Shown here one piece after another: positions 1 to 50,542 of a stretch of DNA of 50,542 bases. A program made the position numbers and the translations under genes. The DNA comes from Nitrososphaerota archaeon (GTDB taxonomy: Archaea > Thermoproteota > Nitrososphaeria > Nitrososphaerales > Nitrosopumilaceae). The stretch spans positions 1 through 50,542 of the forward strand of contig JAJPKL010000024.1 in NCBI GenBank assembly GCA_021323705.1. Reading direction: 5' to 3'. Below the pieces are notes generated by a model. That model did no database searches, was not told the DNA's origin, and worked only from the letters and a program-made list of their open reading frames with translations. Position 1 is the stretch's first letter; each line of letters starts with the position of its first letter.

Positions 1-561
1 CATCTCCAACAACACCATTCCTTTGTTGTATAATGCAGGTTCATGTCTTGGACTGATATGCAGTATTTCATCAAAACACGCTATAGCTTCCTCTCGTCTT
101 GTCATCTTTGCAAGTATGATACACTTCCTTTGTAGCGTCTCAACATTTGAACGATCAAAATTTAATATTTTCTCACATGATTTTATTGCATGTTCTAATC
201 TACCGCAAGAATCTTCAATTGTAATTTTGCATAAAATTGCTTTCTTGTTATGAGGTTGTAATTTTATGATGTCTTCCAATAATTCAATTGCATTATCAAA
301 ATCTTTGATATTATAAAAAAAGTTACACAAGCCAAATTTTGTATCTGCGGATAGTCTACCGAGTTTAATTTTTGATGCACTGTTTAGTGTTAATTTTTTA
401 TAAAGTGTAAGTAGCGATTCCATTTTCTTTCGTTCTTCAAAATTAATTTCCGTCTTAACAAGATCAAAATTTGTAACTAATAACATTTCTTTTAGAGTAC
501 GACTGATGATTCCTGAGACCAATGATAGTTGTAATTGAGATTTTTCTATATCGGAGTACAT
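1..561 (-). CDS. TPR-repeat protein, N-terminal part (cut by the left edge)
   Basis: The open frame starts at an ATG at 559-561 and runs through base 1 without a stop, giving the first 187 residues. From about residue 85 on, helix-turn-helix units with spaced Ala, Leu, Tyr and Phe look like tetratricopeptide repeats, for example DNAIELLEDIIKLQPHNKKA and REEAIACFDEILHISPRHEP. The unit length is about 34 residues. TPR proteins are protein-protein interaction scaffolds. There is no signal peptide or membrane segment in the visible part, so it is probably cytoplasmic. Any C-terminal domain lies outside the window, so no specific function can be given. Confidence 0.75.
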   Translation of the reverse strand, partial: MYSDIEKSQLQLSLVSGIISRTLKEMLLVTNFDLVKTEINFEERKKMESLLTLYKKLTLNSASKIKLGRLSADTKFGLCNFFYNIKDFDNAIELLEDIIKLQPHNKKAILCKITIEDSCGRLEHAIKSCEKILNFDRSNVETLQRKCIILAKMTRREEAIACFDEILHISPRHEPALYNKGMVLLEM

Positions 562-712
562 TTTATCACATCATTGCAGTGAACAAAATAATTCATATTT
601 TGTCTCAACAGCTTATGTAATGTGTTAGAAATTATAGTTTAAAAGTAATTGATCGGTCGAATCAGATAAGCTACATGAACTTCATACATTGGGCAATGCC
701 ATAAAATTAAGC

Positions 713-2326
713 CTATTCGTTAATTCTGCAGTTTGATAAAGGTATTGAAAAGTTTTCAAAGAATTTTCCAAGATCTGTTTTTTTAATTGTACAGGTAACA
801 TATAGCAAGTTTAGACTTGAATCATTTTCTTGGGTTGAGTTGTTTGTTTGATTTGCAAATTTGTTAAGTGATGCAGTAAGATTTTCCAGATCACCTTTTG
901 AGAACAAAAGATCTGCATTGACACTCAAGGTGGAATTTTTATACAATGCATTTTCAAGCTCTTGCGGGGTTATATCCAATGTTGAATTCCCCCCCAAAAG
1001 TTTCTGTAACTGGTCTGGAGTCATATTCATAGTGGTATTTGCACCTATCAATTCCTGTAGCTCTTGCGGGGTCAGACTTATTGTATTATTTCCAGTGGAA
1101 AGTCCTTCAAGAGATGTTTCATTGATAGATGAAGACCCCAAAAGTTTCTGTAACTGGTCTGGAGTCATATTCATAGTGGTATTTGCACCTATCAATTCCT
1201 GTAGCTCTTGCGGGGTCATATCCAACGTTGCGTTTCCTCCAATGATCTGTTGTAATTGCTCAGGCGTAATGTGTACAGTTGTAGAATTACCTGTAGATAT
1301 TACAGGATATGAGATTGTTGCTTGGTTTGCAGGTGATGAATTTGTAACTGTTGAATTAGAAAGTGGTATAGACACCACATTACCTGAGAAAAGGTTGGAG
1401 ACGTATAGTTTGTTAGTAAGTGGATTCATAACTATATTTCTTGCAGATATTTCTGAATTGATCTCATCTAATATTTTATTAGAGTTTCCATCTATCTCAA
1501 ATATAGTTCCCGTTTGTTCATTGGCTTCATAGATTCTATTAGTTATTGGATTAATTGCTATGGAGGAAGAACCTGACATTGTTGGTATGGTGGTTATTAG
1601 ATTATTTGTAGTTCCATTTATGACTGATACTGATCCATAGTTCCAACAAGTTACATAAATCAAATTGCTGATTGGATTGACTGCAACATCCCATGGACCC
1701 CCATCTATTGGAATAGTAGAAATTATTTTATTTGTATTTCCATCTATTACAGTAAGAGAATTTGAAATGCTATTTGGGACGTAAACCTTGTTGGTAAAAG
1801 GATTTACTGCTACGCCCCATGGTCCACTTCCTACTGGTATGGTAGTCACTATGGCATTGTTAGAACCATTAAGCACTGATACTGAGTTGGATATCAAATT
1901 TGTAACATAAACACGATTTGTGGAAGGATTCACTGCTACGCCCCATGGATTACTTTGCACATGGATGTTTGCCACAACATTATTTGTCTCGAGGTTAATC
2001 GCTGAAACTTCATTTGAAAATCTGTTTGTGACATACGCCGTATTTGTAAGTGGATTTATATCTATATGTGCAGGTCCTGAACCAATAAGAAATTTACTCT
2101 GCTCAAGCGGAATGTTGGTTATCACTTTGTCTGTCATGCCATCTATGACAGTAACAAATCCGAATACATAGCTAGTTACATAAATTCTATTGTTTGATGG
2201 GTCTGCTGCCATTCCGCTACTTCCCCATCCAACATCTATGTTGGTCATAGCACCTGCAGCATATTGCATCCAAATAATGCTAGCCATAGCTACAACTAAT
2301 ACTAAGGCGTACAGGCCTTTCCTCAT
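713..2326 (-). CDS. Secreted YVTN-type beta-propeller protein with TPxQLQ repeats
   Basis: 537 residues with an ATG start. An N-terminal signal or anchor segment (about 5-25) is followed by YVTN/NHL-like blades up to about residue 325; each carries a motif such as AVNPSTNRVYVTN, NKVYVPN or NLIYVTC, as in archaeal surface-layer propellers. Then comes a Ser/Thr/Asn-rich linker (about 325-355) and six units of about 17 residues built on TPQELQELIG / TPDQLQKLLG with N-x-T/S sequons between them. The C-terminus carries two cysteines that could form a disulfide. It is probably extracellular and possibly a surface or adhesion protein; no enzymatic motif is seen. The unit region contains an 83-base perfect DNA duplication (992-1074 and 1136-1218), so the repeats are still expanding or being homogenised. 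Confidence 0.85.
   Translation of the reverse strand: MRKGLYALVLVVAMASIIWMQYAAGAMTNIDVGWGSSGMAADPSNNRIYVTSYVFGFVTVIDGMTDKVITNIPLEQSKFLIGSGPAHIDINPLTNTAYVTNRFSNEVSAINLETNNVVANIHVQSNPWGVAVNPSTNRVYVTNLISNSVSVLNGSNNAIVTTIPVGSGPWGVAVNPFTNKVYVPNSISNSLTVIDGNTNKIISTIPIDGGPWDVAVNPISNLIYVTCWNYGSVSVINGTTNNLITTIPTMSGSSSIAINPITNRIYEANEQTGTIFEIDGNSNKILDEINSEISARNIVMNPLTNKLYVSNLFSGNVVSIPLSNSTVTNSSPANQATISYPVISTGNSTTVHITPEQLQQIIGGNATLDMTPQELQELIGANTTMNMTPDQLQKLLGSSSINETSLEGLSTGNNTISLTPQELQELIGANTTMNMTPDQLQKLLGGNSTLDITPQELENALYKNSTLSVNADLLFSKGDLENLTASLNKFANQTNNSTQENDSSLNLLYVTCTIKKTDLGKFFENFSIPLSNCRINE
992..1074. repeat. 83-bp exact direct repeat, copy 1
   Basis: Bases 992-1074 are identical to 1136-1218 (offset 144 bases, a multiple of three). 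The repeat lies inside the C-terminal repeat region of the YVTN protein and encodes two of its TPxQLQ units. The flanking bases differ at once (991 is C, 1135 is A; 1075 is G, 1219 is T), so the copy is exactly delimited. Confidence 0.95.
1136..1218. repeat. 83-bp exact direct repeat, copy 2
   Basis: Second copy of the 992-1074 repeat, in the same orientation and reading frame. The identity includes third codon positions, which points to recent duplication or gene conversion rather than protein-level selection alone. Confidence 0.95.
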
Positions 2327-2413
2327 ATGATACAGTATGAACGGAGAAGATATTAACTGAATTGGAAATCATGAATGAAAAACAGTGCCAATCTGGTCTT
2401 ATGGATAAAAAAC

Positions 2414-2458
2414 AAGGACTGGGAACAGGGTTGGGAATGATAGAAGTTCCCAGTTCTT
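2414..2458. other. 13-bp inverted repeat (hairpin) in a divergent intergenic region
   Basis: Bases 2414-2426 pair with 2446-2458: thirteen consecutive pairs with one G-T wobble around a 19-base loop. The core is ACTGGGAAC / GTTCCCAGT. A second TGGGAA inside the loop (2432-2437) could compete for the same 3' arm. It lies between the divergent YVTN gene (start 2326) and response regulator gene (start 2556), so it could be an operator or an RNA hairpin. No T-run follows, which argues against a simple terminator. Confidence 0.7.
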
Positions 2459-2523
2459 AATGATGATGACCATGGCATATAGATTAATGTCTGTTTGTAC
2501 AAAACGTACAAACGTCCGCAAAT

Positions 2524-2532
2524 AAGATATAC
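2524..2532 (+). promoter_or_regulatory. TATA box of the response-regulator gene
   Basis: AAGATATAC is centred about 28 bases before the ATG at 2556, the spacing expected for a leaderless archaeal transcript. No Shine-Dalgarno sequence precedes the ATG. Confidence 0.5.
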
Positions 2533-2555
2533 AGTATACAATATTTGAATCAAAT

Positions 2556-3065
2556 ATGGAAGTGCTGATAGCTGATGATGAATCTGATCTACTCGATCAG
2601 TACAAATTTACACTTGAAGCCAAAGGTCATAACGTCATAACTTGCAAAGATGGAGAACAATGTCTCAAAGTATACGTGATAGAATCAGAACAACACAATG
2701 GCAATGATTCAACTACTCCATTTGATGCGGTAATTTTAGATTATCAAATGCCACAAAAAAATGGCATTGAAGTGGCAAAAGAAATTCTGGCAATAAATCC
2801 ACACCAGAGAATCATCTTTGCATCGGGATACATTCAAGAGACTTTTCTTGATTCAATTAAACAATTAGGCCAGATCACTGAAATAATGCAGAAACCTTTT
2901 TCGTTACAAGCATTAGTTGATACGATCGAGGATAAAGAGATCTATGCCCAATTGGAAAAACTTAACGTCGATGTTGCGGCAATTAAAGAATTAAACCCCT
3001 CGCATGCACAAATCAAGGCATACTTTGATGTTCTCTGCAGATTACAGAAAGGACGAACCTTTTAG
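2556..3065 (+). CDS. Response regulator receiver-domain protein
   Basis: 169 residues. Residues 1-120 form a CheY-like receiver domain: acidic pocket D8/D9 (IADDES), phospho-acceptor Asp62 in VILDYQMPQKNG, switch Ser90 in IIFASGY and the conserved Lys113 in MQKPF. The remaining 50 residues are helical (QLEKLNVDVAAIKELNP) and contain no recognisable DNA-binding domain, so output is probably through protein contact. No histidine kinase is adjacent. The gene is monocistronic and convergent with the protease gene at 3108. The start is set by a TATA box 28 bases upstream. Confidence 0.9.
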   Translation: MEVLIADDESDLLDQYKFTLEAKGHNVITCKDGEQCLKVYVIESEQHNGNDSTTPFDAVILDYQMPQKNGIEVAKEILAINPHQRIIFASGYIQETFLDSIKQLGQITEIMQKPFSLQALVDTIEDKEIYAQLEKLNVDVAAIKELNPSHAQIKAYFDVLCRLQKGRTF

Positions 3066-3107
3066 ACAAATTCAGATTTAAGGATTTCATTCATTGAATA
3101 GATATCA

Positions 3108-4097
3108 TTATTGTACATTACAACTATTGTTAGTAGGATTTCCATCATACAATGATTCTATTGCGTTAACATCGCATTTTGAGATATATGGATACCCTGT
3201 TTGAATTACGGCATGCATTAGATCCTGCGGATCGCTTGAGTGTGGAAGGCCCAACGCGTGACCAAACTCATGTCTTACGATTGTCGCAAGTTGATTGTCT
3301 GAAAGTTTGTCAGCATCATATATCGTAATGAAAGACTTTAAGATCTGCGAGTTATCCACTACAGATCTGGTATACCCGGAGTATCCGTCTGGGTCTTCAA
3401 GATGTGATAAAGTTATGACTATTTGACCAGGTCCATTATTAGATTCTACAATATTGAATTGGTTTGGAATTGAGAATTCTGTATTATGCACTGTACTGAG
3501 TGCACCTTCCCAACCCTTGAAGTATTCCGACTTTCCATCTGGCGGCGATTTATCAAGTAGTGAATTATTAATGTATATTGACTCCGTTGAAAGTATGGCC
3601 TGTTTTATAACATTGATTTTTCCCTCGTTTAGATGATCAGGATTTACTATGCTTACGGTAAGCGGAGCGCCTTTGGCTATATTCCAATACTTATGGGTAC
3701 TTCCTGTTTCCCCTTGAAGATTTTCTATCAAATATCGAGTTTTTATATGGTCTGATATATTGCCAGTATTTACCTGGTATTGGCTGCTTATTCCATAAAA
3801 TAGCAAAACTGCTAATATTGGTAGCACTACCAATTCCACTTTCAATATTGTTTTTGCACTAAGCTTTTGTATTCTTTTTTTCACTGTAATAATTTCATGT
3901 GAAATCTTGTTCTGTTTTCTGATTAGCTCGCCTATTTGTTCCGGTGGCATTTCGTCTGATAACTGACTAGGATCTGCATGAATCTCTAACAGCTGCAATT
4001 GTTCTGTAGTTTTATTTAGCTCCTTTGTAAGCGCTTGTAACTGTAATCGTAGTTGTTTTATTGATTTTTCTTTTTCAGCCGACTGACTTAATTGCAT
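3108..4097 (-). CDS. Membrane-anchored matrixin-like zinc metalloprotease
   Basis: About 329 residues from the ATG at 4095-4097. The order is a charged coiled coil (residues 4-80, rich in K, E, L and Q), one membrane segment (about 85-103, VELVVLPILAVLLFYG) and an extracellular domain with the metzincin zinc site HEFGHALGLPH (about 276-286), followed by a methionine in DLMHAV that could be the Met-turn. The family is matrixin-like peptidase M10; the substrate is unknown. A GTG at 4134-4136 directly after the upstream stop is an alternative start, but it would put a Cys/Arg-rich 13-residue leader in front and would absorb the AAAAGGAG Shine-Dalgarno-like motif (4111-4118) that precedes the ATG. 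It is probably co-transcribed with the CBS gene upstream. Confidence 0.82.
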   Translation of the reverse strand: MQLSQSAEKEKSIKQLRLQLQALTKELNKTTEQLQLLEIHADPSQLSDEMPPEQIGELIRKQNKISHEIITVKKRIQKLSAKTILKVELVVLPILAVLLFYGISSQYQVNTGNISDHIKTRYLIENLQGETGSTHKYWNIAKGAPLTVSIVNPDHLNEGKINVIKQAILSTESIYINNSLLDKSPPDGKSEYFKGWEGALSTVHNTEFSIPNQFNIVESNNGPGQIVITLSHLEDPDGYSGYTRSVVDNSQILKSFITIYDADKLSDNQLATIVRHEFGHALGLPHSSDPQDLMHAVIQTGYPYISKCDVNAIESLYDGNPTNNSCNVQ

Positions 4098-4136
4098 TTT
4101 ATAAAAACATCTCCTTTTGTCTAAACATATTCTCAC

Positions 4137-5030
4137 CTAACTAAGAGATAGGATCAGATCCCATGGAGTCAATACATTGTTTAATGTCATAACAAAAGAA
4201 TGTTTCATAGTTAACATGGCTTTACACATTTCAGGAATTGTTGTATTTTCAGAAATTATTTTACCATTTTTTAGATTAAGTGAGGTAACTTTCAAATCAA
4301 GAAAGTTATCTATTCCTTCAAGATAGTTCAATTCTACAATTTTCTCAAATATTATTTGCGGATTAACAAATCGTGGAGTGTTTTCAAGTATTAAAATTTC
4401 TGTATTGTTTTGAATCATCTGTGTGATGATCGTACCAATGGTATCCTCTCGATTAAAAGTAAGAATAGATTTTGTAGGTATATCAGAAACTTTCATTTGC
4501 GTGTCACATAGAGTCCCAACTTCCAATAAGCGCCTTGCTGAAATGGTCGAGTAGTCTCCATCTTGATTTTGTATCAATGCAAAGTCTCGTTGTATGTGTT
4601 TCATTTTCCTAAGCAGATCGTTGACTTTGGTATTTGGAGATGCTATGTAGAGGTCTTTATTCATCACCTGATGTACAGTATGGTCTGAAAAGAAAGAATA
4701 GGTAGGATGTTTTAAAAATTCTCCGATAACTTCTTGACTACCAAGCATACCTACAGGGATGTCGTTTTCCATTACAACTAGATTGTTTGTGAATGTCTCA
4801 AGGAATCTGGCAAGCATTGAAGTAGCAATCCATATCTTCTCCTTACTTCCTATGGTGGCCATTGATGAATATACCAACAGATGTGGAAGAATATCTTCAA
4901 TCGTGCATTCGTTCAGATACAAATTACGACTGTCATCAGGCGATGAGAATAATACCCCATTTCGGCTATCTTTTGGTTTGCCACTCTTATGCAGTTTATT
5001 CCTCAAGTTAAATACAAATTTGCTGTTCAT
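4137..5030 (-). CDS. CBS-domain protein
   Basis: 297 residues, ATG start, no membrane segment. Residues about 50-170 read as a CBS pair (LVVMENDIPVGMLGSQEVIGEF, then VHQVMNKDLYIASPNTKVNDLLRKM and DFALIQNQDGDYSTISARRLLEVG). A second, more diverged pair follows (MKVSDIPTKSILTFNREDTIGTIITQM ...). CBS pairs bind adenosyl ligands and regulate partners; no attached catalytic domain is present, so this is a stand-alone sensor. Its stop codon abuts the next gene's alternative GTG, so it is likely in one operon with the protease at 3108-4097. Confidence 0.7.
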   Translation of the reverse strand: MNSKFVFNLRNKLHKSGKPKDSRNGVLFSSPDDSRNLYLNECTIEDILPHLLVYSSMATIGSKEKIWIATSMLARFLETFTNNLVVMENDIPVGMLGSQEVIGEFLKHPTYSFFSDHTVHQVMNKDLYIASPNTKVNDLLRKMKHIQRDFALIQNQDGDYSTISARRLLEVGTLCDTQMKVSDIPTKSILTFNREDTIGTIITQMIQNNTEILILENTPRFVNPQIIFEKIVELNYLEGIDNFLDLKVTSLNLKNGKIISENTTIPEMCKAMLTMKHSFVMTLNNVLTPWDLILSLS

Positions 5031-5223
5031 TTCAAACTCAGACCTTGAGAATCTATAACATCAATAATTGTAGAGATTGGACGAAACATGTTTTCTGTTG
5101 CAATATTGAAATGATATTTTTTAGTATGTTCACATTGAACAGACTTGTGTCTTGTTTAATTGTACTAACAACCAAATTGTTTCAAATGTGATTTGTTTCT
5201 TATTTGTGGTAAACTGCCAGATT

Positions 5224-7647
5224 TTATTTCTTGTTGTTTGTACTGACTGAGTTTTTTTTAAACAAATTCATATTCTTCTTTTTGACTAGCACTCCACCAA
5301 CAGCTATGGATCCAATAATAGCAAAAGGTAATGGATCTACACCATTTATCTTAAATGACTTGAGATTAGCTGTCGTTGATGAGGTTGAGTTAGTATTGGT
5401 ACCGTTGGAGGCAGTTTGAGTTGAATTTATTTTGATAATGTCTTTGAGAGTCAGGGGTTGAAATCCTTGACCGGATACTGTGGGATTAATACTAATCACA
5501 CCATCAGCGCTTGATGTGAGAGCTATGCTTGCAATACCATCTTTATTTGTGGTTTTGTCTGAACTTTGTATGTTTGCCCCAAACACTTTCCAATCAACAT
5601 TCATGTTTTGAAGCGGTTTGCTATATCTTTCCGCTTTTATAGTAGCAAAGAATGATTCGTTAGGTAGGACAGTTGTTGATGAATTAATAGTTACACTAGG
5701 TAGCATGTCTTCAACTTTTACTTTATAGGTTGCAAGTGGTAAATTGTCACCAAGAACCGAAATTGTAGCGCTTCCAGGTAGTTTTGGGTTCACCTCAAAA
5801 GTGGAATAATAGTTATCTTTGGAAATTGTGATATTTGATGGAAATTGAATTATCGAGTCGTTACTTGAGACTAGTCTTATGTTTGTCTCCTTATCTGGGA
5901 ATCTTGGGTTGGATTTTAAATCTAGTACTTGAATTCCCATAAAATTACTATAATTAGCAAGTAATGTTGTAGGATAATCCAAATCTATGCTCGATGGTAC
6001 AGGACTGGCGGAGGTCAACGATATAGTGGCAGGGTAATTGCCGGCAATTATGTTCATGGCAGAAGAACCATCCTTTAACGCGTGGGTATTGAACAAATCT
6101 ACAGAGTCACCACTAGATATTTTTTGTAGATCTACATGAAAATAGTCGTTTGATAGGACGGTTGGGGTATAGTCTGCTGGAAAATAGGTGACTGCGCCAG
6201 AGGAATCTATCAAATATAACACAAGAGGAAAGTCTGTCTGACTCATGATGTTTGGAATAAGTGAGTCAGCGACTAGTTTGAATGAATTTGTAGACAATGA
6301 ATTGATTGTAGTATTCAAGTTTGTATCATTATAAGTAATCACATGTAATGATAAGGGGGAAGGAGTAGCTATATCGCCTACTTTCCCAAAGACAGGTACT
6401 GCCCCTACGCCACGACTTATGTTAACAGGATCAATTGAAAGATATTTTGGATCTGAAGAGTCAACTTCAATTTGCAGATTTTTATTTGCTATGATTGGAT
6501 TGCCATTGCTATCTTCCAAATGCATTATTCCGATAAGTTCTGTATTTCCCGTTGCTGACATTGGTAACAAGTCAAGCCTTGCGGATTTATCGTCAAGAAG
6601 TTGAGAGATAACTGTTTTTAATTGTATCAATCCACCAGTGGAGTTGAGGTTTGATACAGTGTAACCATTTGGTGCAGATAGTCGTATATTGAATGTGCCA
6701 TTCAGACCTGCGCGTACTTGTATTGGCGTGTACCCAACATAATCGCCCTTCTTTATTACGATGGGTGAACTGGAACTAAATAATTGTTCTTGTGGGCTGG
6801 TATTCACTAAACCTGTAGAAGTTGAATTTGTTATTGTCACGGAGATAGGGGTATCGTTATTTGCCAACATGAGATTACCTGTACTGTCTTTTAGAACAGC
6901 TACGACATAAGCGATAGATGATGCAAAATCGTTAATTTTTGTAGGATACACATAAGCTTGAATGGTGGGAGTAGTTGTCGATTTTGATGTAATTGTCGTG
7001 CTTACTGATTGGAATGATGGTGAAGACGCAAATATTTTTGCAGAACCAGGCTGGTTGATTTCAAATTTTCCTATTGCGTAATACTGACCACTTTTTATGG
7101 TGATTTGCGATGTGTCTAACCTAAGGGTTTTGCCATCGGTTGTAGCAACAGTAATTGGAATATCCGTTGTTGCATACACTGGTAAGCCATTACTGTTTGT
7201 CAATTCTATAGAGAAATAGCCTATTTTTGGACCATTAGAAGAAAATGTTGAGGGCGCAGCTTTAATTACTAAATTTGTGGGTGAGTTTTTGTCATCATAT
7301 ACGGTTACTGGAAATTCTTGTGAAGAAAAACCAGGTGCTGCAAGCACTATTTTTGCAGTTCCAGGATTATTTGCCCTGATTTTTATGTGTGTCATAAAAC
7401 CTGAATAGTTGCTATCAAGACCTACTGTCTGTACAACTGTTGAATTGGTAGAAGAAAATGCTACTTGTTCAATTTTAGTAGGAAAGATATGACCTCCATG
7501 TAATGCGTATACTTCTATGATGCCGTCAGAATTTTCAATTATCTTGTCTGGTATCAACCTGACTCCAAGAGTAGTCGTGTCATCAGCATAAGTTTTGACT
7601 ATGACAAGACTTGCCATGAGAATTATTATTAGCACTAGTCCTCTCAA
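5224..7647 (-). CDS. Large secreted Ig-like-repeat protein with C-terminal membrane anchor
   Basis: 807 residues, ATG start. An N-terminal signal peptide (about 1-20, LVLIIILMASLVIVKTYA) is followed by repeated beta-rich modules of roughly 100-110 residues. Their recurring phrases (GNPIIANKNLQIEV, GSAKIFASSPSF, SGSATISVLGDN, GTAKIVLAAPGF) resemble bacterial Ig-like (Big/invasin) folds. A C-terminal hydrophobic segment (about 770-787) followed by a Lys-rich tail anchors it. It is probably a cell-surface structural or adhesion protein. Cysteines appear to be absent. It lacks the PEFG-type tail seen on two other secreted proteins in the window. The exact ligand or role cannot be told from sequence. 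Confidence 0.8.
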   Translation of the reverse strand: MRGLVLIIILMASLVIVKTYADDTTTLGVRLIPDKIIENSDGIIEVYALHGGHIFPTKIEQVAFSSTNSTVVQTVGLDSNYSGFMTHIKIRANNPGTAKIVLAAPGFSSQEFPVTVYDDKNSPTNLVIKAAPSTFSSNGPKIGYFSIELTNSNGLPVYATTDIPITVATTDGKTLRLDTSQITIKSGQYYAIGKFEINQPGSAKIFASSPSFQSVSTTITSKSTTTPTIQAYVYPTKINDFASSIAYVVAVLKDSTGNLMLANNDTPISVTITNSTSTGLVNTSPQEQLFSSSSPIVIKKGDYVGYTPIQVRAGLNGTFNIRLSAPNGYTVSNLNSTGGLIQLKTVISQLLDDKSARLDLLPMSATGNTELIGIMHLEDSNGNPIIANKNLQIEVDSSDPKYLSIDPVNISRGVGAVPVFGKVGDIATPSPLSLHVITYNDTNLNTTINSLSTNSFKLVADSLIPNIMSQTDFPLVLYLIDSSGAVTYFPADYTPTVLSNDYFHVDLQKISSGDSVDLFNTHALKDGSSAMNIIAGNYPATISLTSASPVPSSIDLDYPTTLLANYSNFMGIQVLDLKSNPRFPDKETNIRLVSSNDSIIQFPSNITISKDNYYSTFEVNPKLPGSATISVLGDNLPLATYKVKVEDMLPSVTINSSTTVLPNESFFATIKAERYSKPLQNMNVDWKVFGANIQSSDKTTNKDGIASIALTSSADGVISINPTVSGQGFQPLTLKDIIKINSTQTASNGTNTNSTSSTTANLKSFKINGVDPLPFAIIGSIAVGGVLVKKKNMNLFKKNSVSTNNKK

Positions 7648-35218: not shown

Positions 35219-35238
35219 GAGCAAGTTACAGTTCTTTT

Positions 35239-35775
35239 GTGAAAAAAGAGTTTGAGCGTCCCACGTGGGATGAATATTTTATGCTTCAAGCTGAACTTGC
35301 AAAATTACGTTCTAACTGCATTACTAGGCAAGTAGGTGCAGTAATAGTAAGGGAACACCGACAGATTGCAACTGGATACAACGGAACCCCTCCTGGAGTG
35401 AAAAACTGCTATGAAGGAGGGTGTAAAAGGTGTCAATTGCGCGCTGAAGGAAAGATTGCATCTGGCGAAGCCTTGGATAGATGCATTTGCAACCATGCGG
35501 AAGCAAACGCCATTATGCATTGTGCCATTCTTGGAGTGGGAGCCGGCACAAAGGACACTACGTTGTATACTACCTTCATAACATGTTTAGAGTGTAGCAA
35601 AATGGCCATAACAACTGGCGTTAAACGGATTGTCTGCCTTGATTCATATCCTGAGACCGACTATCAACTGCTACAGGACGCAGGAATTGAGGTAGTGCGA
35701 CTAGATAAAAACAGAATATCGTATTGGATTAAAGCTTTACTTGAAGAGCCGGCAACCAATTTTATACCAAAGTGA
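35239..35775 (+). CDS. Deoxycytidylate (dCMP) deaminase
   Basis: 178 residues from the GTG at 35239, chosen because a TATA box lies 25 bases upstream and the conserved start RPTWDEYFM follows. Zinc motif His86-Ala-Glu88 in CNHAEANAI and Cys116/Cys119 in TCLECSK. It converts dCMP to dUMP for thymidylate synthesis. An extra CYEGGCKRCQLR loop carries additional cysteines, as in ComEB-type deaminases. PolB follows after 7 bases, so the two form one unit. Confidence 0.9.
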   Translation: MKKEFERPTWDEYFMLQAELAKLRSNCITRQVGAVIVREHRQIATGYNGTPPGVKNCYEGGCKRCQLRAEGKIASGEALDRCICNHAEANAIMHCAILGVGAGTKDTTLYTTFITCLECSKMAITTGVKRIVCLDSYPETDYQLLQDAGIEVVRLDKNRISYWIKALLEEPATNFIPK

Positions 35776-35782
35776 ACTATAC

Positions 35783-38341
35783 ATGCAGCCTTCCAAAGCA
35801 ATAGATGAAGTAACAACTACAATGCCGCCTGCGTTACTGGTCTCAGCTACCTATGACGGACAGAAAAAATTAGCCATCTTGAAATTCTACGAGCCGGTTT
35901 CACAAAAAGTGCTTTTATGGTCCGACAACACTGGACATAAACCATACTGCTATTCCAAGTTACTGCCTGAAGAGCTCACATTTCTTTCAGAACGTAAGGA
36001 TGTGATAAAATTAGAAAAAAACCAGAAACAAGACCTACTAAAAGACAGAGCAATTGACGTAACAAAAATAATAGTCACAGATCCGTTAGCAATAGGCGGT
36101 ACACAGACTGACAAAAGCATACGAAACATAATAGAGACATGGGAATCAGATATCAAATATTATGAAAATTATCTGTATGACAATTCCCTAATAGTTGGTA
36201 GGTATTATACAATAGAAAATGGAAAGCTCAAGGAGTTTTCCTATCAAATCCCAGACGAAGTTCAGATTGCACTGAAGGGACTGTTGTATGACAAGGTAAC
36301 AAGCATAGGAATAATCGATAAGAAAGGATTTCAAGACCACATAACACAGTGGGCCAGCCTACTCAATCAACCAATTCCAAAGATTAGGCGGGTAAGCTTT
36401 GACATTGAAGTAGAGTCTGAGATTGGAAGAATACCTGACGCTAAAATTGCTGACAAGAAAATAACAGCTATAGGGTTTTGCGGCAGCGATGATTTCAAGC
36501 AAGTATTTGTTTTGAAAAGAGCCGGAAAGACAGATGGTACTAATGAGCTTCCACCAGATGTCAAGATATCATTCTATGATGAAGATAAAGAAGCGGATAT
36601 GATACGCGATGCTTTCAGGATTTTGACAAACTATCCCTTTGTGGTTACTTTCAATGGGGATGATTTTGATATGCCGTACATGTACAACCGGGCAGAAAGA
36701 CTTGGAATCGAGATAAAAGACATACCGCTCATAATGATGCGTGACTCGGCCACCTTAAAACAAGGTGTGCATATTGATTTGTACAGGGCATTTTCCAATC
36801 GCTCATTTCAGATCTATGCGTTCAGTCACAAGTACAATGACTTTTCACTTAATAGCGTAGCTGAAGGTCTAATAGATGAATCAAAGATAGAGTACGATGG
36901 AGATCTCAACGACCTTTCGCTTTACGAGTTGGCAAATTACTGTTTTAATGATGCCAGACTCACACAAAAACTCACTAGTTTCAACAACGATTTGTTGATG
37001 AATCTACTTGTAGTCATAACAAGAATTGGTAGGATGCCAATCGATGACATATCCAGGATGGGGGTGTCACAGTGGATTCGCAGTCTGTTCTATTACGAGC
37101 ACAGAAATCACAACTTTTTGATTCCACGTAAAGAAGAACTAGAACAAAAATCAGTTGCGGCATCGACTGAAGCTGTAATTAAAGACAAAAAGTATCGCGG
37201 TGGACTAGTGGTAGAGCCCAAGGAGGGAATACACTTCAATGTCTTTGTAATGGACTTTGCCAGCCTGTATCCCAGTATCATCAAGGTTCGAAACTTGTCA
37301 TATGAAACTGTACGGTGCACCCATGACGAATGCAAGAAGAACATGATACCTGAAACGACCCATTGGGTGTGTACAAAAAAGGACGGTTTGACTGCCATAC
37401 TGATTGGATCGCTGCGCGATTTGCGTGTCAATTACTACAAGAGCCTATCAAAAAACCCAACTCTAAGCGAAGACCAGAAGCAACTCTACGTAGTTGTAAG
37501 CCAAGCGCTCAAAGTCATACTTAATGCAAGCTACGGTGTGATGGGAGCTGAAATATTTCCGCTTTATTGCTTGCCTGTTGCAGAAGCCACTACTGCAGTT
37601 GGGAGGTTTACAATTTTAGAAACTATTGAGAAGTGCAAATCCATAGGAATTGAGGTTCTCTACGGCGATACTGACTCTTTATTTCTCAAGGGTCCAACAA
37701 GAGAGCAGATTCAGACCATAGTAAATTGGGCAAAAGAAGAGTTTGGCGTTGATCTTGATTTAGACAAGGAATACAGATATGTTGTTTTCAGTACACGTAA
37801 GAAAAACTATCTTGGGGTCCAAAAAGACGGAAAGGTGGATGTCAAGGGTCTGACTGGAAAAAAATCACACACGCCTCCCTTTATTCGAAATCTTTTCTAT
37901 GAAATACTTGGAATTTTGTCCAATGTGCAGTCAGAGGGAGAATTTGCACAGTCAAAGCAGAAGATTGGCGACATGATATCGCAATATGCAAAAAGGCTCA
38001 AGGCAAGGCAGATTCCATTAAATGAATTGGCCTTTAACGTAATGATAAGCAAGGCACCATCGGAATATGTCAAAACGGTTCCACAGCACATACGTGCGGC
38101 CAAACTCTTGGAATCCACAAGGGAGATCAAAAAAGGCGACATCATATCATATGTGAAGATAATAAACAAGCCCGGTGTGAAGCCTGTAGAGATGGCAAGG
38201 CCGGATGAGATTGATTCTGCAAAATATGTAGAATTTATGGAAAGTACGTTTGATCAGATATTGTCATCTATGGATCTTGATTTCAATACCTTGATTGGGG
38301 CACCAAAACAAACAGGGCTGGACCAATTTTTCTGGAATTAG
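35783..38341 (+). CDS. polB: Family B DNA polymerase (PolB)
   Basis: About 852 residues from the ATG at 35783, seven bases after the dCMP deaminase stop (the open frame extends 14 codons into that gene). 3'-5' exonuclease motifs: SFDIEVES (about 205-212) and FNGDDFDMPY; polymerase motif A DFASLYPSII (about 491), motif B KVILNASYG (about 577), motif C YGDTDS (about 628). It replicates or repairs chromosomal DNA. The C-terminus QTGLDQFF is a clear PCNA-interacting (PIP) box. Confidence 0.95.
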   Translation: MQPSKAIDEVTTTMPPALLVSATYDGQKKLAILKFYEPVSQKVLLWSDNTGHKPYCYSKLLPEELTFLSERKDVIKLEKNQKQDLLKDRAIDVTKIIVTDPLAIGGTQTDKSIRNIIETWESDIKYYENYLYDNSLIVGRYYTIENGKLKEFSYQIPDEVQIALKGLLYDKVTSIGIIDKKGFQDHITQWASLLNQPIPKIRRVSFDIEVESEIGRIPDAKIADKKITAIGFCGSDDFKQVFVLKRAGKTDGTNELPPDVKISFYDEDKEADMIRDAFRILTNYPFVVTFNGDDFDMPYMYNRAERLGIEIKDIPLIMMRDSATLKQGVHIDLYRAFSNRSFQIYAFSHKYNDFSLNSVAEGLIDESKIEYDGDLNDLSLYELANYCFNDARLTQKLTSFNNDLLMNLLVVITRIGRMPIDDISRMGVSQWIRSLFYYEHRNHNFLIPRKEELEQKSVAASTEAVIKDKKYRGGLVVEPKEGIHFNVFVMDFASLYPSIIKVRNLSYETVRCTHDECKKNMIPETTHWVCTKKDGLTAILIGSLRDLRVNYYKSLSKNPTLSEDQKQLYVVVSQALKVILNASYGVMGAEIFPLYCLPVAEATTAVGRFTILETIEKCKSIGIEVLYGDTDSLFLKGPTREQIQTIVNWAKEEFGVDLDLDKEYRYVVFSTRKKNYLGVQKDGKVDVKGLTGKKSHTPPFIRNLFYEILGILSNVQSEGEFAQSKQKIGDMISQYAKRLKARQIPLNELAFNVMISKAPSEYVKTVPQHIRAAKLLESTREIKKGDIISYVKIINKPGVKPVEMARPDEIDSAKYVEFMESTFDQILSSMDLDFNTLIGAPKQTGLDQFFWN

Positions 38342-46463: not shown

Positions 46464-47003
46464 TTGGTAAAAATATACACAAAGACAGGCGATGATGGCA
46501 CTACTGGATTAATAGGTGGAAAACGAGTAAAAAAAACAAACAGTAGAATTATTGCGTATGGTGCAGTAGATGAGATAAACTCTGCAATAGGCATAGTTTT
46601 ATCATCCACCCTAGATCCTGACATCAACGAACTTCTTACAAAGATACAAAATGACCTTTTCATCGTAGGCTCTGACCTTGCAAATCCAGATTTGGAAAAT
46701 TCATCCAATCGAGTTACAGATAAGATGGTAGAATATCTTGAGGGTCAGATAGACAGACTAGAGGGAGAGCTTACTCCAATTACTTATTTCATACTTCCGG
46801 GAGGCAGTCCGCTTGCGGCACAGATACATTTTGCCAGAGCAGTCTGCAGAAGAGCTGAGATAAACATTGTTGAAATTTCAGAAAATGAACAAATTAACAG
46901 ATCCTGTCAGACATACATTAACCGATTATCAGATCTTCTTTTTGTAATAGCCAGAACAATAAACAACCGTAAAAAGATCAAGGACGTAGCTTGGAAAAAA
47001 TAA
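46464..47003 (+). CDS. Cob(I)alamin adenosyltransferase, PduO type
   Basis: 179 residues from the leaderless TTG at 46464 (the frame extends 18 codons upstream, past the TATA box). PduO/ATR signature: KIYTKTGDDGTTGLIGGKRVKK, RIIAYGAVDEINSAIG, and the C-terminal FARAVCRRAEINIVEIS. It makes adenosylcobalamin, needed by methylmalonyl-CoA mutase in the 3HP/4HB cycle; thaumarchaea are known cobamide producers. Monocistronic. Confidence 0.93.
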   Translation: MVKIYTKTGDDGTTGLIGGKRVKKTNSRIIAYGAVDEINSAIGIVLSSTLDPDINELLTKIQNDLFIVGSDLANPDLENSSNRVTDKMVEYLEGQIDRLEGELTPITYFILPGGSPLAAQIHFARAVCRRAEINIVEISENEQINRSCQTYINRLSDLLFVIARTINNRKKIKDVAWKK

Positions 47004-47013
47004 GACAGACACA

Positions 47014-47022
47014 CTTTAATTC
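47014..47022 (+). promoter_or_regulatory. TATA box of the tRNA-Phe gene
   Basis: CTTTAATTC is centred about 29 bases before the tRNA 5' end at 47047. Confidence 0.45.
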
Positions 47023-47046
47023 CCCCACAAGCGGATGATTGGGTGT

Positions 47047-47120
47047 GCCACCGTAGCTCAGCCCGGGAGAGCACTCGGCTGAAGACAGAGCTGTCGCGCG
47101 TTCAAGTCCCGCCGGTGGCA
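47047..47120 (+). tRNA. tRNA-Phe (GAA)
   Basis: A 74-base cloverleaf with discriminator A, no encoded CCA and no intron. The acceptor stem pairs perfectly (GCCACCG with CGGTGGC), the D stem is GCTC/GAGC, and the anticodon loop CTGAAGA gives GAA at 47081-47083. Two stem pairs are mismatched: G47077-A47087 in the anticodon stem and C47099-C47109 in the T stem. Confidence 0.92.
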
Positions 47121-47214
47121 CTCTCGTTTAGTTTAGTATTTTCCATATTGATCCAGACGTCATTTTATAATCTCAATGCATCAAAAGACAATTGTTACTA
47201 ATGTACACCTTTTC

Positions 47215-47262
47215 TGATGAATATCATTTCAAAAAATCATCATAATAAAAAACTATTCATCA
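47215..47262. repeat. 9-bp inverted repeat after tRNA-Phe
   Basis: TGATGAATA (47215-47223) is complementary to TATTCATCA (47254-47262), with a 30-base loop that contains a further TCATCA able to pair with the first arm. Function unknown. Confidence 0.35.
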
Positions 47263-47343
47263 TTATCAAGTTTGATATTGTCTTACAGATTTGTATTGGA
47301 CATCCTAAGAGTGTTGCACCACATTTGAAATTTTACAACATCT

Positions 47344-47353
47344 GTTTATATTA
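47344..47353 (+). promoter_or_regulatory. TATA box of the sensor operon
   Basis: GTTTATATTA is centred 24-25 bases before the ATG at 47373. It is the strongest TATA box in the region, which supports translation of the short first ORF. Confidence 0.6.
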
Positions 47354-47372
47354 GCCGTAATACTTTATCTCT

Positions 47373-47492
47373 ATGAGGAAAAAAACAAAACGAATTCCCA
47401 AAGAAGTGATAAGCATTTCACTTGTTGAGAAATTTGTTTGCAATGCATCAAGCCAATTAAAACCTTCATCGCCAAAGGAGAAGAATCGTTGA
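47373..47492 (+). CDS. 39-residue basic protein at the head of the sensor operon
   Basis: ATG at 47373, TGA at 47490-47492. The product MRKKTKRIPKEVISISLVEK... is basic at the N-terminus with one cysteine and no membrane segment. A TATA box sits 24-25 bases upstream, so the mRNA would begin at this ATG. Its stop overlaps the next gene's ATG by one base (TGATG). It may be a leader peptide or a real small protein. Confidence 0.5.
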   Translation: MRKKTKRIPKEVISISLVEKFVCNASSQLKPSSPKEKNR

Positions 47493-48274
47493 TGCTTAAA
47501 TCAAAATCCCGTACCCCGTTAAAACTTGTAATATCAATTGCGGCAATAACGATTATTTGGGCAGTACCAAATTTTTTAGGTCAAGATATTGCAAAAATAT
47601 CAAGCGATTTAACGTATATTGCCTTAACAGTAATCCTGACGGTAACCGCGTTTTTTCAAGTTTCTCAAACTCACAAAGGGAGTAGAGACAATTTCATTTG
47701 GATCATATTTTCAGTTTTTGCCATGACATATACTGCCGCGCAACACATTTGGGCAGTAAACGAACTCATATTTGATACAAGACCATTTCCATCTTTTGCC
47801 GACGCAGCATTTCTAATAGACACCATATGCCTGATTATATTTTTCATACTATACATAAAATCATTCAAACAAAACATTTCAAGAAAAATTCTAGGCATAG
47901 CCATTCTGCCAAGCTGTGTGGTGGTTGTGATAGCAACTTACTACTACATGTTAAGTAACTCTACAGACAGCATCATGATTCAGATTTTATTATTTTCTTA
48001 TCCTTTTTTGGATGCCATAGCATTAGTGCCTGCAACAATTGGTCTAGTATTGTGGTTCAAAAATAAATTAAATTTTCCTGCATTCGCCATATGTTCTTCT
48101 ATGATTCCACTTGCTATAGGAGATACTTTGTTTCAAATTACCAAACAAAATGAGACATATTATACAGGTTCCATCCCCGATCTTTTTTTCTATATTCAAA
48201 TCGATTTATTGATTTTTGGCGTGTATTTGTTGTCAAACACCATACGAGATATTCTTGAGGAAGAGAAAATTTGA
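47492..48274 (+). CDS. Eight-helix membrane sensor-domain protein without output domain
   Basis: 260 residues from the ATG at 47492, with AAAGGAG about 11 bases upstream. About eight membrane segments fill the protein. The phrases RPFPSFADAAFLIDTICLI and IGDTLFQ...YYTGSIPDLFFYIQIDLLI resemble the repeated P-PS-AD-x-x-YL and GD-x-x-Y...GS-x-x-DL motifs of membrane sensor regions on bacterial histidine kinases and diguanylate cyclases. No kinase or other output domain follows. Its stop overlaps the next gene's TTG start (TTGA). Confidence 0.7.
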   Translation: MLKSKSRTPLKLVISIAAITIIWAVPNFLGQDIAKISSDLTYIALTVILTVTAFFQVSQTHKGSRDNFIWIIFSVFAMTYTAAQHIWAVNELIFDTRPFPSFADAAFLIDTICLIIFFILYIKSFKQNISRKILGIAILPSCVVVVIATYYYMLSNSTDSIMIQILLFSYPFLDAIALVPATIGLVLWFKNKLNFPAFAICSSMIPLAIGDTLFQITKQNETYYTGSIPDLFFYIQIDLLIFGVYLLSNTIRDILEEEKI

Positions 48275-49209
48275 AATTTGCATATTCGATATTACTATTG
48301 GTTTTTTCCGTGATTATTCTATGCGAGGTAGCAGGAACTTACTTTCTTTATGAATTTAAAAAGAATTTGGAAGAACAGATTACAATTGATTCTGAAAAAG
48401 TAGACATCATGATGGTCAATAGGATTGACAGCTATACAATTGAGAGATTGATTGACTTGACCAATCTGGCAAAATCCAGTACATTCGAATCGGCGCTTCA
48501 AGTATCCAACGCCGAGTTTTACAACATGTCCAATCCAGAACAATACATGACCAATATGAACTCAGTGTGGGCGTCCACATCAAAAAATGAAACTACTCCG
48601 TTCATGAAAACATTGATTGATTCTAGGCCTTCAGAACAACTTCGCCAGATACAATATTTTGAGAGCATTTTGTTTGGCGGTAAAATGTATGAGGACATTT
48701 TCATGACAAATTCATACGGCGCAAATGTAATTGAGATGGATAAAACTTCTGCCTATAAACACGATGAGGAAACATGGTGGAAAGAGGCAAAAAATAATGG
48801 CTTGTACATCGGTGGAGTAGAGTTTGATAATAATACAGGTGCATCACACTACCCAATTGCAGTTCAGCTAACTAATGAACATGGTGAGCCCATAGGAGTT
48901 GCAAAATCAGTCGTAAACACACAGCAGATGATCAAAATAATAAAGAGTTTGATGAACTCAACAGACCCAAGTCCAATTGAATACGAATTAATAGGACCTG
49001 CAGGCGCAGTAATCTATTCTACAGATCCTACCGAAAAACCAGGCTCGTTAAATCAGGAATTAGAATATTCTGACAATCTGAAAGAGTCTTCAGGGCATTT
49101 TGTGCAGACTATCAACGGTGAAGACTACCTCGTAACATATTCCCATTCAGTTAATTCGAAATTTTCCCCACTGTTTAATTGGGCGTTTGTTACAAAGTAC
49201 AAGCTATAA
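48271..49209 (+). CDS. Extracellular Cache-type sensor protein, cut by an in-frame TAA
   Basis: 312 residues from a TTG start that overlaps the previous gene by four bases. N-terminal membrane anchor (about 4-24), a helical stalk, then a double-Cache-like domain (MTNSYGANVIEMDKTSAYKHDEETWWKEAKNNG, then HYPIAVQLTNEHGEPIGVAKSVVN). It ends at VTKYKL with a TAA at 49207-49209. The reading frame continues unchanged into the next ORF, which encodes a TM segment and HAMP domain, exactly what normally follows a Cache domain. So this is either a gene disrupted by a nonsense mutation or a split receptor. Confidence 0.75.
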   Translation: MKFAYSILLLVFSVIILCEVAGTYFLYEFKKNLEEQITIDSEKVDIMMVNRIDSYTIERLIDLTNLAKSSTFESALQVSNAEFYNMSNPEQYMTNMNSVWASTSKNETTPFMKTLIDSRPSEQLRQIQYFESILFGGKMYEDIFMTNSYGANVIEMDKTSAYKHDEETWWKEAKNNGLYIGGVEFDNNTGASHYPIAVQLTNEHGEPIGVAKSVVNTQQMIKIIKSLMNSTDPSPIEYELIGPAGAVIYSTDPTEKPGSLNQELEYSDNLKESSGHFVQTINGEDYLVTYSHSVNSKFSPLFNWAFVTKYKL

Positions 49210-49215
49210 GAAATC

Positions 49216-49455
49216 ATGCAGCCAGTATACGAACTATCCAATCTTATTATAATAACAACACTCATACTATTGGTAACTGTCTCTGCTACAGTGTTTGTAT
49301 TGTCAGGTAAACTTGCAAGACCATTAGAGCAAATTCGTCATGGATTAATCTCATTTAACAAAGGAGAGAGGGTCAGAATTGAACCGCATGGAGAAGAAGA
49401 AGTACGCGATTTAATAAAACAGTTCAACCACATGATAGAAACCCACTCCGACTAG
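49216..49455 (+). CDS. TM-HAMP fragment, same frame as the Cache gene
   Basis: 79 residues: a membrane segment (about 9-30, LIIITTLILLVTVSATVFVLSG), then a HAMP domain (KLARPLEQIRHGLISFNKGERVRIEPHGEEEVRDLIKQFNHMI). It starts two sense codons after the in-frame TAA of the Cache gene and has no good Shine-Dalgarno of its own. No kinase or methyl-accepting domain follows; TAG at 49453-49455. Probably the C-terminal part of one disrupted or read-through receptor. Confidence 0.65.
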   Translation: MQPVYELSNLIIITTLILLVTVSATVFVLSGKLARPLEQIRHGLISFNKGERVRIEPHGEEEVRDLIKQFNHMIETHSD

Positions 49456-49588
49456 TGGCTACAAAATATGGAGTCTAAACCAGACATAAATTGAATTTAA
49501 GACGAAGACGTTTTGCTCATGACTATTCAAAGGGATAGTATGAATCACAAACATCATCCTATAGCTACCACCCCAATTAAAAACAATT

Positions 49589-49960
49589 TTAGTTGGTTTT
49601 GCTACTCAGAGTTGGGTGTTTGTACTGTTTGTAAGCAAGATAATTTGTGATCAAAAGTAGGACTTGTAAGACATATCCGCCAGTAATTAGCACTATGGCA
49701 TTATAAAGAGGATGAAACGTGGTCATAATCTCAATATGTTTGTAAAAGGCGCTATTGCCTGCTATGACGATTCCAGATATTATGAAATTTGGAATGTAAA
49801 CGTGTTTGTAGTTTTTTGCAGTCAAGATTGCAAGAACAATAAAACAACCTTCCAAGACAAAAGCCTGCGCAATAAATTTTGGATCACCAAGAGGTATGCC
49901 TAAAGCACCTACAATCGATATTGCGACAAGTACTATTGATACCCTCTTTGTGCTTTCCAC
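49589..49960 (-). CDS. Small four-helix membrane protein, unknown
   Basis: 123 residues with four membrane segments (about 7-25, 32-48, 56-70 and 84-108) and a polar Lys-rich C-terminus (YKQYKHPTLSSKTN). One conserved-looking Cys in segment 2 (VLEGCFIVLA) and His in loops. No family is recognised. Confidence 0.65.
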   Translation of the reverse strand: MESTKRVSIVLVAISIVGALGIPLGDPKFIAQAFVLEGCFIVLAILTAKNYKHVYIPNFIISGIVIAGNSAFYKHIEIMTTFHPLYNAIVLITGGYVLQVLLLITNYLAYKQYKHPTLSSKTN

Positions 49961-50064
49961 ATATTCAGAAATGACACATTGTTAATAAAAATGACCCTGG
50001 TTATCTTGTCAGTAATTATTTTAAATATGAGGCATTCATACGGTACTCCAAACAGTAGATTGAG

Positions 50065-50418
50065 ATGAGCACTACAAACATGAATAACTATTGCAAAAAA
50101 ATACTGGAACTTGATCCTCAGATTAGGTTCGCAGGAAAAATTGTAAATGATCAACTAGTATCGTCTGCAAGAAAGGATGGAGTCATACCGCTCCTTGATA
50201 AGCAGTTAGCGGATCTGGCTCATCATCAAGTGGTAGTAAAAGCCATGATGGACAAGATGTTTACAGACAAGATGGGAAATACGGATTGGATTGTAGAGTC
50301 AAAAGGCAAAGTGAAGCTTTTAACCATTTTTCAACCAGATGGAATATTGATCCTGTCAACAGAGCCTACCTCGGATCATCACGCCATAATTGAAAAAATA
50401 AAGAAGTTAAACGTGTAA
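50065..50418 (+). CDS. Conserved unknown protein, 117 residues
   Basis: ATG start. Soluble: helix NYCKKILELDPQIRFAGKIVNDQLVSSARK, then DKQLADLAHHQVVVKAMMDKMF, and a beta part (WIVESKGKVKLLTIFQPDGILILSTEPTSDHHAIIEKIKKL). The size and beta-alpha alternation recall Roadblock/LC7-like proteins (profilin-like fold), but this is tentative. Confidence 0.65.
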   Translation: MSTTNMNNYCKKILELDPQIRFAGKIVNDQLVSSARKDGVIPLLDKQLADLAHHQVVVKAMMDKMFTDKMGNTDWIVESKGKVKLLTIFQPDGILILSTEPTSDHHAIIEKIKKLNV

Positions 50419-50542
50419 AAAATTTCGAGTTAATAATGCTTTGTCGACTAACTCCACATCTTACTGACATTCTAATCTAATTTCCTACACAGGAGAAGCT
50501 TTGGATCAGACCCTACTGACCAATTCTCATGATTGAGTGGAA

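Follow-up and report, generated by a model that had tools for sequence, protein, structure and literature searches.

A probable 3'-truncated remnant of a Cache sensor kinase cassette behind the tRNA-Phe gene of a Nitrosotalea-group archaeon

Combining orthologue comparison, domain and relic searches, and an analysis of conserved gene neighbourhoods, our work addresses a Cache receptor gene that appears to be split by a single in-frame stop codon near the end of the stretch of DNA analysed here (the window, 50,542 nucleotides, which is the entire contig C24 of a 1.84-Mb genome in 44 contigs). We propose, with a probability of roughly 0.85, that this gene belonged to a lineage-specific sensor cassette behind a tRNA-Phe gene, has lost its 3' part and was inactivated recently, and is hence a dead or dying remnant. 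The reading frame, open in the orthologues, is disrupted here both by a TAA in place of S, T or V and by the loss of about 375 codons from its 3' end.

The 5' part of the gene, coding for TM1 and the dCache sensor, spans 48271-49209 on the plus strand (TTG start, 312 aa) and is cut off by a premature in-frame TAA at 49207-49209, while TM2 and the HAMP domain follow on the same strand at 49210-49455, closed by a TAG at 49453-49455. The first-pass annotation had described a Cache ORF and a TM-HAMP ORF (49216-49455, ATG start, 79 aa, TAG stop) in one frame, with starts 945 bases apart and only TAA GAA ATC in between, and our analysis confirms these coordinates, the frame and the spacing. The dCache_1 match to the first ORF is weak (17.1 bits, under the 45-bit Pfam cut-off) and the HAMP match to the second lies just over its 25-bit Pfam cut-off at 25.5 bits; scanning the genome contigs with the single protein and searching solved structures with a profile both returned no match. 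Across 37 genomes of the genus (the Nitrosotalea group), a close orthologue is present in only four. The orthologues in Candidatus Nitrosotalea sp. sed-bin190 (G026) and in the MAGs REEA26 (G007) and REEA5 (G024), the latter two labelled Thaumarchaeota, are open frames of 784-791 codons (775-778 aa from their starts) with the architecture TM-dCache-TM-HAMP-PAS-HisKA-HATPase, and their Cache parts are about 54-55, 45-46 and 35-36% identical, respectively, to that of the window; the G007 HAMP domain falls under the Pfam threshold, yet aligns. With the G026 protein as query, one tblastn alignment extends over 48268-49479 straight across the TAA (E 1e-121), so that the continuity of Cache and HAMP is more than chance, and alignment to all three orthologues across the stop places the Cache domain between two TM helices with HAMP behind them, the order expected of a dCache kinase. 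The flanks of the stop align gaplessly (KYKL*EIMQPV in the window, KYKYSELLEPV in an orthologue), and the comparison at codon 313, which had been named beforehand as a test, finds the sense codons S, T and V. Because three orthologues of the same genus read straight through the position of the stop, the two ORFs must once have been a single gene, and judging from these alignments they are one gene with an in-frame stop. The ATG at 49216 falls in a column occupied by L in the orthologues and therefore looks like a chance start; no Shine-Dalgarno-like sequence is seen upstream of it, as the annotation had noted, and a scan with a sigma-70-type promoter model, which is not archaeal, gave sites no more numerous than in shuffled sequences. 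Lacking start signals of its own, the TM-HAMP ORF probably yields no protein, or does so only through weak re-initiation.

The same three orthologues reveal the setting from which the remnant likely derives. In each, the kinase gene is immediately preceded by a gene for a 7TM-like membrane protein and has a CheY-like response-regulator gene in its vicinity, and the intact cassettes (7TM gene, dCache kinase and CheY-like regulator) extend over 2448-7189 of locus L053, 3129-10502 of L054 and 1147-4767 of L055. At L053 and L054, a long gene for a LamG-like secreted protein adjoins the cassette and is transcribed away from it. This neighbour, whose family was assigned by reading the sequence, places the intact cassettes of G026 and G007 at another chromosomal site, and the relatives of the LamG-like protein in the window genome lie on other contigs and are 39% identical at best. 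The window copy thus shares with these kinases the N-terminal TM helix, the dCache domain, TM2, HAMP and the upstream 7TM gene, but differs from them in its internal TAA, in lacking PAS, HisKA, HATPase and the response regulator, and in its chromosomal location. Its own 7TM-like gene is intact (47438-48274, plus strand, likely start ATG 47492) and overlaps the start of the Cache ORF by four bases; the protein has no Pfam or NCBIfam match and is 53, 47 and 38% identical to the counterparts encoded just ahead of the kinase in G026, G007 and G024. Since 7TM genes elsewhere in the genus mostly have no Cache-kinase match within 1.5 kb, finding such a gene does not establish that a cassette works. 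The window genome also encodes a Cache-HAMP kinase paralogue (contig C38, about 35229-37088, 615-619 aa) that has the TM-Cache-TM-HAMP front in common with the window copy, with 24% identity in the Cache part, but unlike that copy is intact, with HisKA/HATPase domains and a regulator gene behind it. Further afield, a profile scan of genome contigs recovered the three orthologues together with three bacterial Cache relatives (L167, L168 and L169; 25-31% identity) in MAGs labelled Phycisphaerae, Phycisphaeraceae and Brocadiia, matches that may reflect transfer, contigs assigned to the wrong organism or simply remote homology.

What is missing from the window is the entire output half of the kinase. 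Whereas the orthologues run about 375 codons past HAMP, homology in the window stops at the TAG or at most 24 bases beyond it. Searches for kinase relics after 49455 (tblastn at E 10; HMM searches with filters off in six frames) yielded only a weak in-register 'MESK', which makes 49456-49479 on the plus strand a possible last piece of kinase homology (tblastn reach to 49479; shuffle p about 0.03-0.07). The junction that follows, 49480-49590, carries no kinase homology in any frame. Neither a HisKA phosphoacceptor nor a HATPase domain was found in any frame after 49455-49479, and the 1 kb downstream holds no kinase or regulator homology. No partner response regulator stands beside the remnant, the only regulator match being a distant one at 2553-2927, 46 kb away. 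Nor was the lost half found as an orphan elsewhere in the genome, where the best candidates, on contigs C19 and C1, have front halves of their own; the candidate on C1, a PAS kinase at about 2673-4017, was rejected as a separate gene with its own N-terminal membrane part. With PAS, HisKA, HATPase and regulator all absent, neither a sequencing error at the TAA nor read-through of it would restore a kinase. The annotation had held that a normal receptor layout results once the TAA is taken out, a view not supported here, since the orthologues are full histidine kinases and the window lacks both the kinase half and the response regulator. Its proposal of stop-codon read-through fares no better: the stop does leave the frame preserved, with a conserved HAMP part behind it, but no folded RNA element follows the TAA (z 0.85), the orthologues carry sense codons rather than a conserved stop, and the product, a TM-Cache-TM-HAMP protein of 394 residues, would be without any output domain, so that we regard programmed read-through linking Cache to TM-HAMP as wholly improbable. 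Among the causes listed in that annotation, a recent nonsense mutation holds up best, yet it accounts for one lesion only, since the gene has been truncated as well.

The genomic position of the remnant points to a local gain of DNA. A tRNA-Phe(GAA) gene at 47047-47121 on the plus strand (found by ARAGORN and Rfam, single copy in the genome) forms the left border of a lineage-specific insert of about 2.47 kb (47122-49590, borders approximate), and the right border is a core-genome membrane protein gene at 49589-49960 on the minus strand (29 of 37 genus genomes), next to which stands its conserved neighbour, a core-genome small protein gene at 50065-50418 on the plus strand (37 of 37). The PduO-like gene upstream is conserved as well, as is the tRNA gene. 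Where both borders were resolved, the distance from tRNA-Phe to the right-hand core gene is 26-135 bp in 21 of 22 relatives, as against about 2.47 kb in the window, and the 7TM gene together with what is left of the kinase gene makes up the excess. The one remaining relative, G023, has a different insert of 4.16 kb at the same tRNA-Phe site (L160, contig C34, reverse-oriented 231-4393), with putative ribonucleotide-reductase-like (large) and phosphoribosyltransferase-like frames as read from the translation. Two different inserts in two genomes imply that the site behind tRNA-Phe took up DNA at least twice, making it a possible insertion hotspot. The empty site in relatives and the tRNA border are features of tRNA-associated inserts, but neither an att-like repeat nor an integrase accompanies them here: no repeat of the tRNA end of at least 14 nt occurs in 46900-50542, and apart from the 7TM and Cache/HAMP frames the insert contains no sizeable plus-strand frame.

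Given that the stop rests on a single assembly and that the window ends about 1 kb past the break, at the contig end, we considered whether a sequencing or assembly error made the TAA, and possibly also the missing 3' end, in a genome that in truth has an intact kinase. Two features of the same genome lend some weight to this idea. A conserved PAS histidine kinase gene (L108, contig C1, 2673-3996, minus strand) which many relatives carry as an open frame of about 440-465 codons, appears to be split by a frameshift close to a T run within the HATPase domain. The sole tRNA-Phe gene, 2 kb from the break, has an A at one stem base where 22 of 22 relatives have C (AGACAGAGCT versus AGACCGAGCT), which leaves G opposite A in the anticodon stem and may be either genuine variation or a mistake in the consensus. 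Against an error, about 45 conserved genes or blocks of the window, compared with the syntenic stretches of five relatives, show no convincing internal stop or frameshift, the disruption cases listed in this census looking like upstream extensions or shadow frames. Moreover, the expected core flank resumes after 49590, so the truncation is not an artefact of the contig end, and an error in a base cannot delete about 375 codons and a regulator. We therefore consider this explanation unlikely as a whole; a possible error confined to the TAA would leave the conclusion on the lost kinase half unchanged.

The age of the lesion bears on whether the shortened gene still serves a purpose. Identities in the Cache part are 54, 36 and 41% among the orthologues themselves, and those of the window copy to the orthologues are no lower; the HAMP part is 30, 35 and 31% identical between the window and G026, G007 and G024, and 36, 28 and 35% among the orthologues (28-36% overall). 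Tajima counts for the window against G026, with G024 as outgroup, are 27:27 in Cache and 9:11 in HAMP, no frameshift is found within either part, and segment-wise divergence, used to date the stop, gives no signal of decay in Cache or HAMP. Conserved columns are kept at 0.81 in Cache and 0.86 in HAMP, similar to the orthologues. The absence of accelerated divergence means that the stop is recent compared with the split of the lineages, or that the product is partly still used, and it would count against the remnant reading insofar as coding selection seems to have lasted until recently or may still act. One could thus suppose that the truncated gene works: a Cache protein tethered to the membrane but devoid of a kinase might, whether or not the TM-HAMP peptide takes part, act together with the 7TM protein and serve another kinase, for instance as an accessory sensor or a decoy. 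Such a function would fit the intact 312-codon frame, the orthologue-like retention of conserved columns, the overlap of an intact 7TM gene with the Cache start, which suggests translational coupling, and the occurrence of Cache ORFs of 228-283 aa without an in-frame kinase in other genera of the family. On the other side, the truncated form is found in one genome only, recent loss predicts equal retention of columns, and the coding sequence for TM2 and HAMP persists past the stop, as for a young lesion. We accordingly judge a surviving sensory role very unlikely.

We favour instead the inactivated remnant, for which the following course of events can be outlined. The ancestral cassette would have comprised a 7TM membrane protein, a TM-dCache-TM-HAMP-PAS-HisKA-HATPase kinase and a CheY-like regulator. 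Loss of the 3' half of the kinase gene would have abolished signalling output and, with it, selection on what was left, and the nonsense codon may then have arisen after this loss, an order of lesions that we infer. If translated at all, the remnant would yield a Cache protein tethered to the membrane by a single TM helix, with neither TM2 nor HAMP nor kinase; a ligand could still bind to it, but no path would lead to phosphotransfer.

What had seemed a receptor split by a single stop is thus best read as a kinase gene broken and truncated in an ordinary way. Among archaea, kinases with Cache domains have been described as almost confined to Methanomicrobia, and Thaumarchaeota as dominated by stand-alone REC regulators (PMC5847659). 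The intact thaumarchaeal cassettes, each with an adjacent 7TM gene, modestly extend the Methanomicrobia-centred picture of Cache kinases, and they agree with the predominance of stand-alone REC regulators in Thaumarchaeota. For the ammonia-oxidising archaea of the Nitrosotalea group, the stretch behind tRNA-Phe emerges from our analysis as a site where variable DNA is gained.
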